From the NCBI GenBank assembly GCA_017883205.1, contig JADGNZ010000056.1, forward strand, positions 1 to 39,504: 39,504 nt of DNA. Reading direction: 5' to 3'. The DNA comes from Thermoanaerobaculia bacterium (GTDB lineage Bacteria; Acidobacteriota; Thermoanaerobaculia; Gp7-AA8). Below the pieces are notes generated by a model that saw nothing but the letters and a program-made list of their open reading frames with translations, searched no databases and was not told where the DNA came from. A program made the translations under genes and the position numbers. This document shows, in pieces, positions 8,108 through 33,610 of this stretch; position 1 is the first letter of the stretch, and each line of letters opens with the position of its first letter.

Positions 8108-8194
8108 TTGACAATTGACAATTGACAACGAGGGACGGGCCGCTCCCAGTTGCCTGTTCTTTCGTTGTCAATTGTCAATTGTCCATTGTCAATT
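8106..8194. repeat. Inverted repeat with ATTGACA heptamer arms
   Basis: The left arm 8106-8132 is the heptamer ATTGACA three times, then ACGA. The right arm 8162-8194 starts TCGTTGTCAATTGTCAATTG and carries four complementary words. It starts on the stop codon of the zinc-ribbon gene and ends 5 nt before the stop of the next, convergent gene, so it is the whole spacer. Confidence 0.75.
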
Positions 8195-8199
8195 GATCC

Positions 8200-8977: not shown

Positions 8978-9092
8978 GCTTCGGTTTTACGTAGGTCGGA
9001 CTCTCTAGTCCGACTGCTTCGGTTTTACGTAGGTCGGACTCTCTAGTCCGACTGCACGTGATGTCGGACTGGAGAGTCCGACCTACGTAAAC
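8978..9092. repeat. Triple GTCGGACT hairpin repeat
   Basis: A 38-nt unit is tandemly duplicated (8978-9015 and 9016-9053) and followed by an inverted third copy (9063-9092). Each unit holds an 8-bp stem GTCGGACT/AGTCCGAC with a 4-nt loop (8995-9014, 9033-9052, 9063-9082). The outer arms TTTACGTAGGTC and GACCTACGTAAA also pair. It may terminate the deacetylase transcript, but the duplication marks it as a repeat element. Confidence 0.8.
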
Positions 9093-17297: not shown

Positions 17298-17380
17298 AGG
17301 ATGACCGCAAAGCAGAGGGAGGATGACATTCGATCAAGCTGACGGGTCATCCTTCATCCTTCATCCTTCATCCTTCAAAG
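17282..17380. repeat. Inverted repeat with GAAGGAT heptamer arms, copy 1
   Basis: The left arm 17282-17305 carries three GAAGGAT/GAAAGAT words and contains the esterase stop codon. The right arm 17345-17380 carries four ATCCTTC words. It lies between two codirectional genes and ends 15 nt before the pepQ start. Confidence 0.78.
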
Positions 17381-24108: not shown

Positions 24109-24275
24109 GGTGGGGGGTGGGGCGTGGGGAGTGGGGGGTGGGAGAGGAGTCAGCGACCGAATGATGCCTGCGCCGTGCGCTTCAGGCGGCGCGGTTCCGG
24201 GCTTCGGCCCAGGTCTCTGCGCGCCCACACGTTAAATCAATCTCCCACGCCCCACGCCCCACGCCCCACTCCCCG
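24109..24275. repeat. Inverted repeat with GTGGGGN heptamer arms
   Basis: The left arm 24109-24144 is five GTGGGGN heptamers; the right arm 24241-24275 is complementary CCCCACN heptamers. A GC-rich loop of about 95 nt separates them. It sits between two divergent genes, where a terminator would make no sense. Confidence 0.75.
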
Positions 24276-24314: not shown

Positions 24315-26117
24315 GTGGCAAATCAGGGCACAACACGCAGGCGCGCCATCGGCGCGGAGATCATCGACGGCGGCGTCGACTTCCGCCTCTGGGCTCCTGA
24401 CCGAAAGAACGTCAGCGTCGTCATCGACGATCGGACGATTCCGCTCGATCGCGAGGCAGACGGCCACTTCCGAGGGACCGTGGCCGATGCGCGCGCAGGA
24501 ACCCGCTATCGATTTCGTCTCGATGATGACGACAAGCTCTATCCCGATCCTGCCTCACGCTTCCAGCCTGATGGCCCGCATGGCGACTCCGAAGTCGTCG
24601 ATCCTGCCGCGTATCGATGGAGCGACGGCGCGTGGCCCGATGTCGACAAACACAATCTCGTCATCTACGAGATGCACATCGGCACCTTCACTACCGAAGG
24701 CACCTGGCGCGCTGCCATCCCGCACCTCGGCGCACTTCGCGACATCGGCATCAACCTCCTCGAAGTCATGCCCGTCCACGAGTTCCCCGGCCGCTTCGGC
24801 TGGGGATACGACGGCGTCGATCTCTGGGCGCCGTCGCATTTGTACGGCCGGCCCGACGACTTCCGTGCTTTTGTCGACGCCGCTCGCGCTCACGGCCTCG
24901 GCGTCATTCTCGACGTCGTCTACAACCATTTCGGCCCCGACGGCTGCTATCTGCGGCAGTTCGCGAAGGACTACTTCACGAACAAGTACGTGAACGACTG
25001 GGGCGAGTCGATTAACTTCGACGGCGATGGCTCCCCCGGCGTGCGCGAGCTCGTCTCCGAAAACGCGGCGATGTGGATCGACGAGTTTCATCTCGACGGA
25101 CTGCGCCTCGATGCCACGCAGTCGATCAACGATGCATCCGATGAGCATGTGCTCGCGCTGATCGCACGGCGGGCGCGCGCGGCGGCGGCCGGTCGATCCA
25201 TCTTTCTCGTCGCGGAGAACGAGCCGCAGGATGTCGCGCTCATCGACGACTACGGCCTTGATGCGCTCTGGAACGACGACTGGCATCACGCTGCAATGGT
25301 CGCCGCAACGGGACGCCGCGAGGCCTACTACACTGACTACTTCGGTACGCCGCAGGAGTTCGTGTCGATGGCGCAGTTCGGCTTCCTCTACCAGGGCCAG
25401 TACTACTCGTGGCAGAAGGATGCGCGCGGCACGCCGTCGCTGCACCTGTCGCCGAAGCAACTCGTCTGCTTCACGCAGAATCACGACCAGATCGCGAACT
25501 CGGGACGCAGCGAACGGCTGCAGCAACTGACGAGTCCCGGCCGGTTTCGCGCGCTGACCGCACTGCTCCTCCTCGGACCGAATACGCCGATGTTGTTTCA
25601 GGGGCAGGAGTTCGGCGCATCGACTCCCTTCCTCTACTTCGCCGATCACAATCCCGAGCTGGCGAAGGCGGTGGGCAAAGGACGCCGCGAGTTCCTGGAG
25701 CAGTTCCCTTCCCTGCTCCGGATGAAGGGCGACTTCGCACCGCCCGAGGCCGAGGAGACGTTTCGGCGATGCAAACTCGATGATCGTGAGCGCGTCGGGA
25801 ACGCGGAGATGATCGCGCTGCATCGCGATCTCCTACGGTTGCGCCGCGAGATGACCGGCACGGTGCGCGGCGCTCTGCTCGCCGCGGAAGCGTTCGTGCT
25901 CCGCTTCGACAATCGTCTCCTCATCGTCAACCTCGGGCGCGAGGTACACCTCGACGTCGTCCCCGAACCGCTTCTCGCGCCGCCCGCGAAGCGCAACTGG
26001 GAGTTGCTCTGGTCGAGCGAATCGCCAGACTACGGCGGTACAGAAACACCACCAGTCGAGACCGATGGGAGATGGTGCTTACCGGCGCAGGCGGCGATCG
26101 TGATGAAGGCGTCGTAA
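24315..26117 (+). CDS. treZ: Malto-oligosyltrehalose trehalohydrolase
   Basis: A 600-residue GH13 enzyme that releases trehalose from the end of maltooligosyl-trehalose in the TreY-TreZ pathway. N-terminal CBM48-like domain (DFRLWAPDRKNVSVVI), then the barrel: GYDGVDLWAPSHLYG, DVVYNHFGPDGCYL, nucleophile D266 in GLRLDATQSI, acid/base E301 in VAENEP, and transition-state Asp D391 in FTQNHDQIAN. The sequence LYFADHNPELAKAVGKGRREF is typical of TreZ. GTG start. No treY, treX/glgX or glycogen gene lies nearby. It is followed by the 1-kb repeat-filled spacer. Confidence 0.94.
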   Translation: MANQGTTRRRAIGAEIIDGGVDFRLWAPDRKNVSVVIDDRTIPLDREADGHFRGTVADARAGTRYRFRLDDDDKLYPDPASRFQPDGPHGDSEVVDPAAYRWSDGAWPDVDKHNLVIYEMHIGTFTTEGTWRAAIPHLGALRDIGINLLEVMPVHEFPGRFGWGYDGVDLWAPSHLYGRPDDFRAFVDAARAHGLGVILDVVYNHFGPDGCYLRQFAKDYFTNKYVNDWGESINFDGDGSPGVRELVSENAAMWIDEFHLDGLRLDATQSINDASDEHVLALIARRARAAAAGRSIFLVAENEPQDVALIDDYGLDALWNDDWHHAAMVAATGRREAYYTDYFGTPQEFVSMAQFGFLYQGQYYSWQKDARGTPSLHLSPKQLVCFTQNHDQIANSGRSERLQQLTSPGRFRALTALLLLGPNTPMLFQGQEFGASTPFLYFADHNPELAKAVGKGRREFLEQFPSLLRMKGDFAPPEAEETFRRCKLDDRERVGNAEMIALHRDLLRLRREMTGTVRGALLAAEAFVLRFDNRLLIVNLGREVHLDVVPEPLLAPPAKRNWELLWSSESPDYGGTETPPVETDGRWCLPAQAAIVMKAS

Positions 26118-26271
26118 GCGCGGCGCAAGCGCAGGAAGAGGCTGTACTTAGGCAACATGACGCGTGACGATGAGGATGGGGATGTGCCGACGTTTGGCAT
26201 TTTCGATGTCAACGTTGTCACCGTGCGTGCGAAGTCGTCATTCATGGATGACACATCGGCAATTTTTACTC

Positions 26272-26583
26272 GAAATCGTGATCCCAGGATGTCATCGATG
26301 ACGTTTTTTAAGCGAAATCGGCTTCCCGGAAGTCATCGATGACATATTTTTAGGCATCGATGACATTTTTTAGGCAAAATTTGCATCGTGGAAGTCATCG
26401 ATGACATCTTTTAACCGAAATCGGCATCCTGGAAGTCATCGATGACATTTTCTAAGTGAAATCGGCATCCCGGAAGGCATTGATGACATTTCTCGAGCGA
26501 AATCGTCGTCATTGGATGCCGACGTAGTCAGTTCTTATTCGAAATCGTCATCCTGGGTGTCGGAATCGTCATTCCTTGATTGC
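26272..26583. repeat. 41-bp tandem array with phased 12-bp palindrome
   Basis: Seven units start with the word GAAATCG, or a degenerate form, at 26272, 26314, 26376, 26417, 26458, 26499 and 26541. Four units contain the perfect palindrome GTCATCGATGAC (26291, 26332, 26394, 26435). Near-perfect copies start at 26353 and 26476. Palindrome spacing is 41, 21, 41, 41 and 41 bp. A short T-tract follows each palindrome. The last two units have diverged. The unit length is not a multiple of three and stops occur in the frames I read, so it is non-coding. Confidence 0.9.
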
Positions 26584-26771
26584 TCGATGTCGACATTCGT
26601 CGATCTTCGCTCGAGTTTGGTGGCGGCGGCACGCCAGGCGGTCCCTTCGCTCATGACTGTTTGGGCAAACGCCTCAGAATCAAGCTCTCGGCGATACGCC
26701 GCTTTTCAACACGGCTAAATCTCTCCGAGGTGGCGTGTGCGGATGTCGTCCATCGTGTCATCCCAATTGTC

Positions 26772-26980
26772 GTGTCATCCTGAGACAGCCGGAGCCGCCG
26801 ACGCGAATCGATCCGCTCGCGGAGAATGTGTTCGGCGGCGGAGGACGGCGAAGGATCTCAAAATGCGACGCACAAGCCATGTGCCCGGCAACTTGAGATC
26901 CTTCGCCGTCCTGCGGCGCCTTCCCATCATGCGTGAAGGCGCGAGTCGTGCGGGCGCCTCCGGCAGGCTCAGGATGACAC
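26772..26980. mobile_element. MITE-like non-coding element with terminal inverted repeats
   Basis: The element is bounded by the perfect 13-bp terminal inverted repeats GTGTCATCCTGAG (26772-26784) and CTCAGGATGACAC (26968-26980), extended inward imperfectly (CCGGAGCCGCC with GGCGCCTCCGG). An inner stem, GGCGAAGGATCTCAA with TTGAGATCCTTCGCC, lies around 26848-26906. It holds no ORF. The length of 209 bp with double symmetry is typical of a miniature inverted-repeat element. Confidence 0.65.
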
Positions 26981-26981
26981 T

Positions 26982-27094
26982 GACTTTCAAAGTGGGGTCA
27001 GGTCCAAAATTGAAAGTGCCCGGAAGTGCCGCTGTCAGTAGCCCACCGGGGTTTCGTCACTTTCAATTTTGGACCTGACCCCACTTTGAAAGTC
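26982..27094. repeat. REP-like GGGGTCAG inverted repeat, copy 2
   Basis: Two perfectly complementary 37-bp arms (26982-27018 and 27058-27094) flank a 39-nt centre. The arms contain CAAAGTGGGGTCAGGTCC. The element starts 2 nt after the MITE-like element. Confidence 0.9.
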
Positions 27095-27111
27095 ACGAAC
27101 GCACCGAAACC

Positions 27112-27155
27112 CCCGCCGGGCAAGGACGCCCGGCGGTAGCAGGCAAGAATGCCTG
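27112..27155. repeat. Two adjacent hairpins
   Basis: CGCCGGGC with GCCCGGCG (27113-27134), then GCAGGCA-AGAA-TGCCTGC (27138-27155). They lie just past the stop of the convergent minus-strand gene and may act as its 3' end. Confidence 0.5.
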
Positions 27156-27157
27156 CA

Positions 27158-27637
27158 CTACGCCGTGAGCAATTTCCCTGGCCACGCTTCTTCCGCTCTG
27201 CGGATCCAGTGGCCGGTGCGGATCTCCGAGAGGCGGTCGGCGGTGGTGTCGAAGATCGTCGTGTGCAGGTCGGCGCGATTGCGAAAGTCGGCGCGGCTGA
27301 GCGCTTCGATGCGGCCGTCGGTGTGACGGACGAAGACGCGGTTGGCGTCGAGGATCGAGACGCCGAGCTCGTGCTCGAATTGCTTGAGGAGGCCGAACAT
27401 CCGGTCGATCGAGCATCCCGAGGTCTCGCTGCGCTCATCGACGGCGAGGGCGAGGAAGCTGCCGTAGAGCAGTTCGCGGGCGGACGTGACCGGAACATCG
27501 TGCGCCGCCCAGCCGTCGAGAAAGCGATCGACGCGGTCGAGAAACTGTTTGCTCTGCGTTTCGTTCAACGCAGGTGAGATGCCGAAGAGCCACGTGCGGG
27601 CGTGGTCGTCGAGTTGATTGATGTCGATTCGTGGCAC
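27158..27637 (-). CDS. Conserved hypothetical protein (often mis-named ABC transporter ATPase)
   Basis: A 159-residue soluble protein. It has the pattern FLDGWAAHDVPV, a LLYGSFLALAVDE stretch and the ASGCSID-like motif SGCSIDRMFGLLKQFEHELGV. Proteins with W-AHG, a VDE strand and SGCSID occur widely in Bacteroidota and related phyla. Some are labelled ABC transporter ATPase in databases without any Walker motif; none is present here either. The Cys/Ser in SGCSID is conserved and could be functional. Function is unknown. Divergent from the TerB-like gene, with a GAAGGAT hairpin between the starts. Confidence 0.72.
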   Translation of the reverse strand: MPRIDINQLDDHARTWLFGISPALNETQSKQFLDRVDRFLDGWAAHDVPVTSARELLYGSFLALAVDERSETSGCSIDRMFGLLKQFEHELGVSILDANRVFVRHTDGRIEALSRADFRNRADLHTTIFDTTADRLSEIRTGHWIRRAEEAWPGKLLTA

Positions 27638-32412: not shown

Positions 32413-32490
32413 CGGAAGGATGAAGGATGAACTGTGTGCGCGATTCGGGCTCATTCATCCTTCATCATTCATCCTTCATCCTTCATCTTT
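32413..32490. repeat. Inverted repeat with GAAGGAT arms, copy 3
   Basis: The left arm 32413-32432 carries two GAAGGAT words; the right arm 32451-32490 carries ATCCTTC and ATCATTC words. It lies between convergent genes, and its right arm runs into the stop codon of the PLP enzyme gene. Confidence 0.75.
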
Positions 32491-33610
32491 AATCCAGCGC
32501 CCTGAGCAAATCCTCCACGAGATCGTCCGCATGCTCCAGGCCCGCCGAGATGCGCAGGAGGTTCTCCGCGGTCCGGCTGCCGGGGCCCTCGCTCGAGTTG
32601 CGATGTTCGATCAGGCTTTCCGTGCCGCCGAGAGATGTGGCGCGGGTGAAGATTTTCGTCTTCGCGGTGACGGCCAGCGCTGCTTCGCGTCCGCCGCGGA
32701 CGTTGAACGAGAGCATGCCGCCGAACGCGGACATCTGTTGCGCGGCGATGGCGTGGCCGGCATGCGACTCCAGTCCCGGATAGTGAACGGCCTCGACGCG
32801 CGGGTGCGTTGCCAGGGCGCGCGCGAGTGCCATGGCGTTCTCGCAATGTACGCGCATGCGCGCGGGGAGCGAACGGATGCCGCGCAGGATGAGCCATGAG
32901 TTGAAGGGCGAGGCCACGCCGCCGGTAATCTTGCGGCAGTGCTCGACGGCTTCGGCCAGTCCGTCGCGTTGCGCAAACGCAAGCGATCCGCCCTGCACGT
33001 CGCTGTGTCCGCCGAGGTACTTGGTGGTGGAGTGGAGCACGACGCCGGCGCCTTGCTCGATGGGACGCTGCAGCGCCGGCGTAGCGAACGTCGCATCGGC
33101 GATGAGGATCGCGTTTGCCTCGTGCGCGATCCGCGCGAGCGCGGACACATCGGCGATTCTCATCAACGGATTCGATGGGGACTCGCACCAGATGGCGCGT
33201 GTCGATGTCTGCACCGACGCCTTCACGGCATCGAGATCGTCCATCGCCACAAAGTCGAACGACACACCCCAGCGGTTCAGGTACTCGTTGGCCAGCGCGC
33301 GAACACCGTAGTAGCTCTCGTCCTGCAGCAACACGTGCGAGCCGGCCGGCAGCGCCTGCAACAAGCACGTCGTCGCTGCCATCCCGGACGCGAAGGCCAG
33401 CGCGTGCGAAGCCGAATCGATCGCCGCAAGCGCCTCTTCGAGACGTACCTGGGTTGGATTCCCGTCGCGGATGTAACTGAATCCGTGCGACGGCGAACCG
33501 TCCTCGGCGCGCCGCTCGAACGTCGTCGAAAGATGAATGGGGGCCGCGATGGCACCAGTTTCGTCGTCTGTCCCTGCTCCGGAATGAACCGCCTTTGTTT
33601 CGAATCGCAT
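32489..33610 (-). CDS. Cystathionine gamma-synthase/lyase family PLP enzyme
   Basis: A 373-residue fold-type I PLP enzyme. Signatures: TKAVHSG at the start, PIHLSTTFER, YIRDGNPT (Tyr/Arg phosphate contact from the neighbouring subunit), FASGMAAT, ESPSNPL, ADATFATP, the Schiff-base lysine K197 in LHSTTKYLGGHSD, and TSLGGTESLIEHR near the C-terminus. The family includes cystathionine gamma-synthase (MetB), cystathionine gamma-lyase and methionine gamma-lyase. The sequence alone does not decide between them, so no gene symbol is given. No other Met/Cys pathway gene is adjacent. Confidence 0.9.
   Translation of the reverse strand: MRFETKAVHSGAGTDDETGAIAAPIHLSTTFERRAEDGSPSHGFSYIRDGNPTQVRLEEALAAIDSASHALAFASGMAATTCLLQALPAGSHVLLQDESYYGVRALANEYLNRWGVSFDFVAMDDLDAVKASVQTSTRAIWCESPSNPLMRIADVSALARIAHEANAILIADATFATPALQRPIEQGAGVVLHSTTKYLGGHSDVQGGSLAFAQRDGLAEAVEHCRKITGGVASPFNSWLILRGIRSLPARMRVHCENAMALARALATHPRVEAVHYPGLESHAGHAIAAQQMSAFGGMLSFNVRGGREAALAVTAKTKIFTRATSLGGTESLIEHRNSSEGPGSRTAENLLRISAGLEHADDLVEDLLRALD

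Follow-up and report, generated by a model that had tools for sequence, protein, structure and literature searches.

The array of short palindromes in the window (the whole analysed stretch of 39,504 nucleotides, contig C102 of a Thermoanaerobaculia genome) forms the central part of a MITE-like cassette, non-coding and intergenic, that spans about 450–560 bp; the cassette is copied whole to seven places in that genome and is present as two partial copies at contig ends. The first-pass annotation had described the array at this one locus and had proposed a genome-wide search for its motif at phased spacing. A search with the 312 bp of the array as query against the window's own genome (G000; 6.37 Mb in 105 contigs) recovered six further long copies at 81–84% identity and with the same layout.

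Layout and copies of the cassette

The array comprises six sites, none of which (nor any of the modules described below) is assigned a strand. Four are perfect copies of GTCATCGATGAC (26291–26302, 26332–26343, 26394–26405 and 26435–26446), the third in order is GGCATCGATGAC with one change (26353–26364), and the last is GGCATTGATGAC with two (26476–26487); all were located by motif search, the second also by alignment of the copies. Start-to-start steps are 41, 21, 41, 41 and 41 bp, the 21-bp step containing a 9-bp AT-rich spacer, ATATTTTTA (26344–26352). Both the sites and their spacings thus stand as originally described, and they lie far above chance: motif matches with up to two mismatches number 23 across the window against 3.7 expected, with none of 100 shuffles reaching 23, and the four occurrences of one perfect 12-bp palindrome compare with a maximum of one in 500 shuffles of the region and of three in 60 shuffles of the whole window. 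T-runs of 6, 5, 6, 4, 4 and 3 follow sites 1 to 6, so that a T-tract behind every site is seen as described, the last one being weak.

An ORF scan found no reading frame of at least 80 aa overlapping 26272–26583, in agreement with the description of the spacer as gene-free. The extent originally assigned to the element, 26272–26583, is too short, since the homology shared with the other copies begins near 26158 and reaches about 26610, or in some of them about 26713–26740. To the left is a leader module of degenerate 41-bp units (26158–26290) with homology to contigs C32, C23, C31 and C28 and to C24 of the congener G002, and it is found whole or in part in other cassette copies. A right module of degenerate units (26488–26610) matches C31, C28, C1 and C32, where homology stops at 26596–26614. 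An optional tail module (26611–26713) is present only in the window's contig, C35, C23, C76 and C77, and its match in C23 and C76 continues to 26735–26740. The opposite strand of this tail (26611–26713 and the copies in C23, C76 and C77) is partly open, with similar residues by eye in C23 and C77, and the module may be a decayed gene end.

All seven copies share the order of two sites, a 21-bp step and four sites, with 41-bp steps otherwise. The copy in C32 has one extra site, the third on its left side, and departures of 1 bp (42 for 41) occur once in C35 and once in C32. One further copy is cut short by the end of contig C76 and another by that of C77, in each case past the tail and before any site is reached. 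The genome contains 33 perfect sites, 28 inside arrays and five elsewhere, and all five of the latter lie in stop-to-stop open frames of 205–827 codons. An operator or regulon role was therefore dropped, the check having covered perfect sites throughout the genome and imperfect sites within the window. By inspection, each copy has different neighbouring ORFs, which form convergent, divergent and same-direction pairs.

In the window the cassette occupies an intergenic spacer of about 1 kb (26118–27157), nearly all of which is extra DNA relative to the congeners. The gene to the left (24315–26117, + strand) matches the Pfam alpha-amylase and CBM_48 families and the ORF to the right (27158–27637, − strand) matches no Pfam family at E 0.001, these neighbours of the window's array being the ones searched for families; the two converge on the array. 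The same spacer carries two more dispersed repeats (26773–26986 and 27102–27165), both of which match the congeners G001 and G002 many times over, and a perfect 38-bp inverted repeat with 39 bp between its arms (26981–27095). The inverted repeat scores 47 bits against an Rfam miRNA family, under that family's cut-off of 79, perhaps through resemblance to a mobile repeat.

Comparison with the two congeners identifies the cassette as extra DNA in G000, because both have the neighbouring blocks and neither has the insert. At the window locus 1139 bp separate matching blocks in G000 as against 87 bp in G002, and 1051 as against 26 bp in G001; at a second locus the intervals are 789 bp in G000, 68 bp in G002 and 51 bp in G001. 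Empty sites were checked at both loci in both congeners; they were located without exact cassette ends, and no target duplication was made out. The cassette is probably young relative to the genus. Searches with the cassette and with a profile found no relative in G001, and in G002 they found three related arrays (C24, C232 and C19) with units of 41 and 42 bp and half steps of 20–21 bp. The pair of perfect GTCATCGATGAC palindromes is missing from these G002 arrays, which do not support the phased layout proposed in the annotation. The 41-bp motif pair occurs in one of 18 genomes of the family and is absent from the other 17, G001 and G002 included, so a site conserved across species is unlikely; sites of the parS or matS type are instead marked by the same motif at chromosomal positions across related species.

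Scans for the paired motif also returned six stretches in genome_contigs and one in viral_contigs, collections from which records near the window's genome may be absent. Two of these (L052 and L055) were dropped as homologues and read as coding VIDD motifs, and L053 was dropped as one isolated pair. The remaining four lie in 21-bp tandem arrays of unsettled coding status and were not counted. Three belong to a Verrucomicrobia MAG, in which arrays with a 21-bp step on three contigs contain GTCATCGATGAC pairs (L049:557–783, L050:1387–1615 and L051:4917–5119), and the fourth, from a Flavobacteriales MAG (L054:3954–4254), comprises 14 units of 21 bp that carry this same palindrome, is open in several frames and is possibly a heptapeptide-coding repeat. 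Plasmid and phage collections gave no match.

Conservation and helical phase of the palindromic sites

The copies diverge from one another by 6–25%, and the changes fall far less often in the palindromes than in the spacers. In the seven-copy alignment there is variation in 8 of 72 columns within palindromes and in 55 of 125 within spacers (Fisher p = 1.2e-6), the first site (26291–26302) being 100% identical in all seven copies. The 9-bp spacer of the 21-bp step is likewise invariant (0 of 9 columns). Over the 42 sites the consensus is G-N-CATCGATG-N-C, with the end positions G1 and C12 unchanged in every one; changes fall at position 2 in seven sites, at position 11 in four, at position 9 in three and at position 6 in one, and positions 2 and 11 are symmetric. 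This contrast suggests that the palindromes are under selection, their simplest role being that of putative dimer-binding sites; in behaving like selected sites they lend support to that part of the original interpretation. Selection may have acted on the palindromes once the cassette was inserted, or new copies may have arisen only from those whose palindromes were good, and the data are compatible with both.

Individual units hold their position-specific sequence from copy to copy, as judged by eye, which argues that the cassette spread as finished arrays that diverged later; homogenisation within arrays does not explain this pattern. The shared spacing is mostly inherited from one founder, and the seven layouts, being copies of that founder, do not amount to seven tests of phase. 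A seemingly engineered spacing at a single locus can thus be a copied layout. Small indels number one (of 1 bp) in the array core, against 71 minimum substitutions in seven copies, and six in the tail module, against 60 minimum substitutions in five copies; the difference (Fisher p = 0.054, or 0.059 when limited to the three copies that have both regions) does no more than hint that the spacing has been held.

A further claim, that all sites would face the same side of the DNA, fails for ordinary B-DNA. At 10.5 bp per turn the sites lie at 0, −34, −34, −69, −103 and −137 degrees, a modest drift per step that nevertheless sweeps 137 degrees; alignment would need 10.3 bp per turn, at which all sites fall within 14 degrees of the first. 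Nor do the T-tracts keep a common phase at a significant level, the coherence of A/T-tracts being 0.68 at 10.5 bp per turn (p = 0.06) and 0.87, with no p value computed, at 10.25. Bent DNA was rejected as an explanation on the p value at 10.5 bp per turn.

Arrays with a step of about 21 bp

With a two-unit profile, weak relatives were picked up in G000, in G002 and in G009, which represents another genus of the family; these were in fact arrays of different sequence, repeated at periods of 41–43. Since the profile is biased towards those same periods, we took a census of arrays with Tandem Repeats Finder in 400 kb each of G000, G009 and G049 and in 136–200 kb of six more genomes. The G000 sample consisted of contig C1, where a cassette copy is located, together with 60 kb of C31, and that of G009 of 400 kb of C29; the six other genomes were represented by the starts of ten contigs each, which may over-represent repeats. 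Among arrays of at least 180 bp, a basic period of 20–22 bp was found in 18 of 21 in G000, 8 of 9 in G009 and 2 of 2 in G016, or 28 of 32, as against 1 of 10 in the six other samples (G001 0/1, G012 0/2, G010 0/0, G018 0/2, G022 0/0 and G049 1/5). The grouping of three genomes against six is post hoc, so that the Fisher p of 1.4e-5 is descriptive, as is that of 3.6e-8 for arrays of at least 100 bp (32 of 38 against 1 of 17, three arrays lacking a measurable basic period, one in G016 and two in G018, being left out). When counted by family, the class makes up 32 of 44 arrays of at least 100 bp in the six sampled family genomes and 1 of 11 in the three outside it, and 28 of 35 against 1 of 7 for arrays of at least 180 bp. 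None of the six arrays in the samples of G001, G010 and G012 belongs to the class, which is therefore patchy and not family-wide.

The 32 periods have a mean of 21.04 and a standard deviation of 0.32, 20 of them being exactly 21.0 and 12 departing from it. At this level the idea of the 21-bp step as a unit of helical turns gains some ground, in that arrays in three genomes cluster at 21 bp, or two turns. An origin in heptad-coding sequence was considered for the whole class and rejected, as the 12 periods off 21.0 show that a codon-based origin does not cover all of the arrays; 29 of 34 arrays also overlap no ORF predicted by a purpose-built codon-usage caller. Several arrays with a period of exactly 21 have a stop-free frame with a codon score above zero, the highest being 0.49 per codon, and some of these may be coding now or have been so formerly.

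The arrays share a period and little sequence. By blastn, 36 of them (including three of period 41–42 and the window's own) fall into 26 sequence groups. Of 31 units (one of the 32 arrays lacking a unit consensus), 17 contain an inverted repeat of 7 bp in which six or more positions pair, and the other 14 are not clearly palindromic. Inverted repeats are significant at p < 0.05 in 9 of 31 units against 1.6 expected (combined p = 1.4e-5, with shuffles that keep base composition only and related arrays left unmerged); the same test gave 2 of 13 among the other arrays, one of them a copy of the window cassette. In 15 of 18 arrays conservation is higher at palindromic positions than elsewhere in the unit (p = 0.014), a comparison that includes the C1 copy of the cassette and may be slightly favoured by the choice of palindromes from the consensus. 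With a clear palindrome missing from 14 of 31 units and a positive test in 2 of the 13 other arrays, palindromes cannot account for the class by themselves.

Dispersal is not confined to the window cassette. The array type with TGATCCGGATCA units matches seven places in G000, counting its own, and one in G002, and another type that was tested matches six in G000, again counting its own. The density of arrays in the G000 sample is 52 per Mb, which would correspond to about 330 per genome if the sample is typical. Half-units of the window array are too diverged for autocorrelation at 20.5 bp, and its C1 copy reads 41.0; its assignment to the class depends on 41 being 2 × 20.5 and on the single 21-bp step. 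The cassette appears to belong to a wider set of gene-free arrays, mostly with a step of about 21 bp whatever their sequence. A broader statement, that some genomes of the family contain hundreds of unrelated intergenic arrays in which a 20–22 bp step is held, many with a conserved palindrome, so that the period and not the sequence is conserved, is tentative and rather unlikely.

Examples of unrelated intergenic arrays with a period of 20–22 bp in the G000 and G009 samples are L171:4293–4604, L177:6901–7481, L180:14661–15004 and L161:10685–11208. Beside the C1 copy of the cassette there is an array of different sequence (L056:7121–7244) with GTTGAG-type units spaced at exactly 21 bp in four of four steps. 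A 22-bp array on C1 of G000 (L178:17673–18171) has flanks that lie on different contigs in G001 and also in G002, reflecting either rearrangement or an assembly break. In G002, a match on C82 that is 67% identical and 303 as against 302 bp long, beside a colinear flank, is suggestive of an orthologous array.

Candidate explanations and described elements

We favour, at a probability of roughly 45%, an explanation in which the palindromes are bound by a putative homodimeric protein and binding along the array of the MITE-like cassette keeps its unit in use. Each G-N-CATCGATG-N-C palindrome would be one binding site, and the protein might either help to copy or maintain the cassette or organise the DNA locally. 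The array would be built on a step of about 21 bp, with 41 as two steps of 20.5 and the one step of 21, and a step close to two helical turns would be favoured because neighbouring bound dimers touch.

The main rival holds that the arrays are purely selfish or neutral minisatellites, the cassette being copied by some recombinase and then decaying. The palindromes would look conserved only because source copies needed them, and the 21-bp step would reflect how the arrays are made, by hairpin-assisted slippage, rather than binding. The patchy presence between congeners, the dispersal of each of the three array types tested in a few copies, the breaking of contigs within copies and the lack of a regulon all fit this account, and we consider it a serious contender that is somewhat doubtful as a full explanation. 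Taken alone it leaves the common 20–22 bp period of unrelated unit sequences unexplained, and the single small indel in the core of seven copies against six in the tail of five (p = 0.054) also sits awkwardly with it.

Should the period, and not the sequence, prove to be what dozens of unrelated arrays have conserved, the question of what shapes intergenic minisatellites in bacteria becomes testable. Repeats defined by their geometry would be a new kind of bacterial repeat, implying either a protein system, of the host or of the element, that recognises palindromes together with their helical spacing or copying machinery that advances two turns at a time. A step of 20–22 bp with a palindromic unit in an intergenic position provides a search image for other genomes.

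Among familiar arrays, plasmid iterons and partition-site arrays also repeat binding sites at about two helical turns. These sit beside their own replication or partition gene, whereas the present arrays, many of them unrelated, are found between other genes.

The nearest counterparts in the literature are the BrickBuilt and PgRS/464 MITEs of Porphyromonas gingivalis, as presented in the available text of PMC4596501. The first-pass annotation's statement that no described element has this layout was too strong, as PgRS and BrickBuilt elements carry tandem repeats of 41 nt and 23 nt, respectively (PMC4596501); regularly spaced palindromes are not mentioned for either in the available part of that account. 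BrickBuilt elements are species-restricted and always intergenic, with 19 copies in one strain and predicted stem-loops (PMC4596501), and like the cassette they have imperfect tandem repeats between leader and tail modules. They differ in their 23-nt unit, as against steps of 41 and 21 bp with a conserved palindrome, and in their IS5-like terminal inverted repeats (PMC4596501), for which no exact 10-bp match was found in the cassette. PgRS/464 shares with the cassette 41-nt tandem direct repeats within a dispersed element that has repetitive flanks, but it comes from an unrelated organism and has terminal inverted repeats resembling those of IS elements (PMC4596501), the likeness considered here being one of unit length and arrangement. 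In common with elements of this kind the cassette is dispersed and intergenic, with internal tandem units and non-identical flanking modules. Like MITEs in general it is short, non-coding, multi-copy, intergenic and absent at orthologous sites (two loci in two congeners). No exact terminal inverted match of at least 10 bp was found between the outer 170 bp in three of three copies, a comparison with approximate ends that would miss imperfect or shorter repeats. We call the cassette MITE-like and do not claim membership, which would take terminal inverted repeats and target duplications. The cassette also resembles REPs, BIMEs and REPINs, which are dispersed extragenic palindromes that are often clustered (PMC3733652, PMC2817692, PMC3116915). 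REPs are imperfect palindromes of 20–40 bp (PMC3733652) and usually exceed 100 copies per genome (PMC2817692, PMC3116915), whereas G000 has 33 perfect sites; in REP and BIME elements the unit is a single palindrome, whereas here an entire six-site array has been copied, in seven copies and two partial ones. Other marks of REP and BIME elements are a GTAG or CGTC tag and an accompanying RAYT transposase. No period-locked 21-bp class in bacterial intergenic DNA was recognised in the literature available as titles and the beginnings of abstracts, with few subscription journals among them, which is weak evidence of novelty.

Another rival is a transcribed, structured RNA whose hairpins would, as in REP and BIME elements, affect where nearby transcripts terminate or how stable they are. 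Each strand folds better than shuffled sequences do (z = −4.9 and −4.7), the array in the window lies between convergent genes, and positions 17 and 24 of the unit, in a possible small hairpin, pair in 24 of 27 units (as T-A, C-G or T-G). Good folding on both strands is, however, expected of any array of palindromes, and the scan of 27 units yields 17 such pairs, most of them outside any helix, among which the 17–24 pair is not outstanding. On the alignment of the copies, two-sided changes affect 2 of 62 pairs, with an unfavourable covariation term of +1.09 and, as most pairs are invariant, little power; with so few compensatory changes and with 17 scattered pairs that form no clear helix, we give the folding little weight. 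The orientation of flanking genes varies among copies and includes a divergent pair, no promoter-like site was found and a single terminator-like site lies outside the array, and nothing in Rfam matches the array at gathering score, all of which makes a role as RNA improbable.

A helically phased platform presenting all sites on one face, as a nucleoid or partition site or as bent DNA, would suit the spacing shared by the seven copies (apart from the 1-bp departures in two), the class mean of 21.04 bp and the alignment expected at 10.3 bp per turn, but with a drift of 137 degrees at 10.5 bp per turn, A/T-tract phasing at p = 0.06 and most of the relatives searched lacking the array, we regard it as very improbable.

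Elsewhere in the window there are short arrays with a 7-bp unit, a third of 21 (8165–8195, 17347–17377, 24109–24142, 24244–24274 and 32454–32495), and a perfect tandem duplication of a 38-bp unit at 8978–9055.
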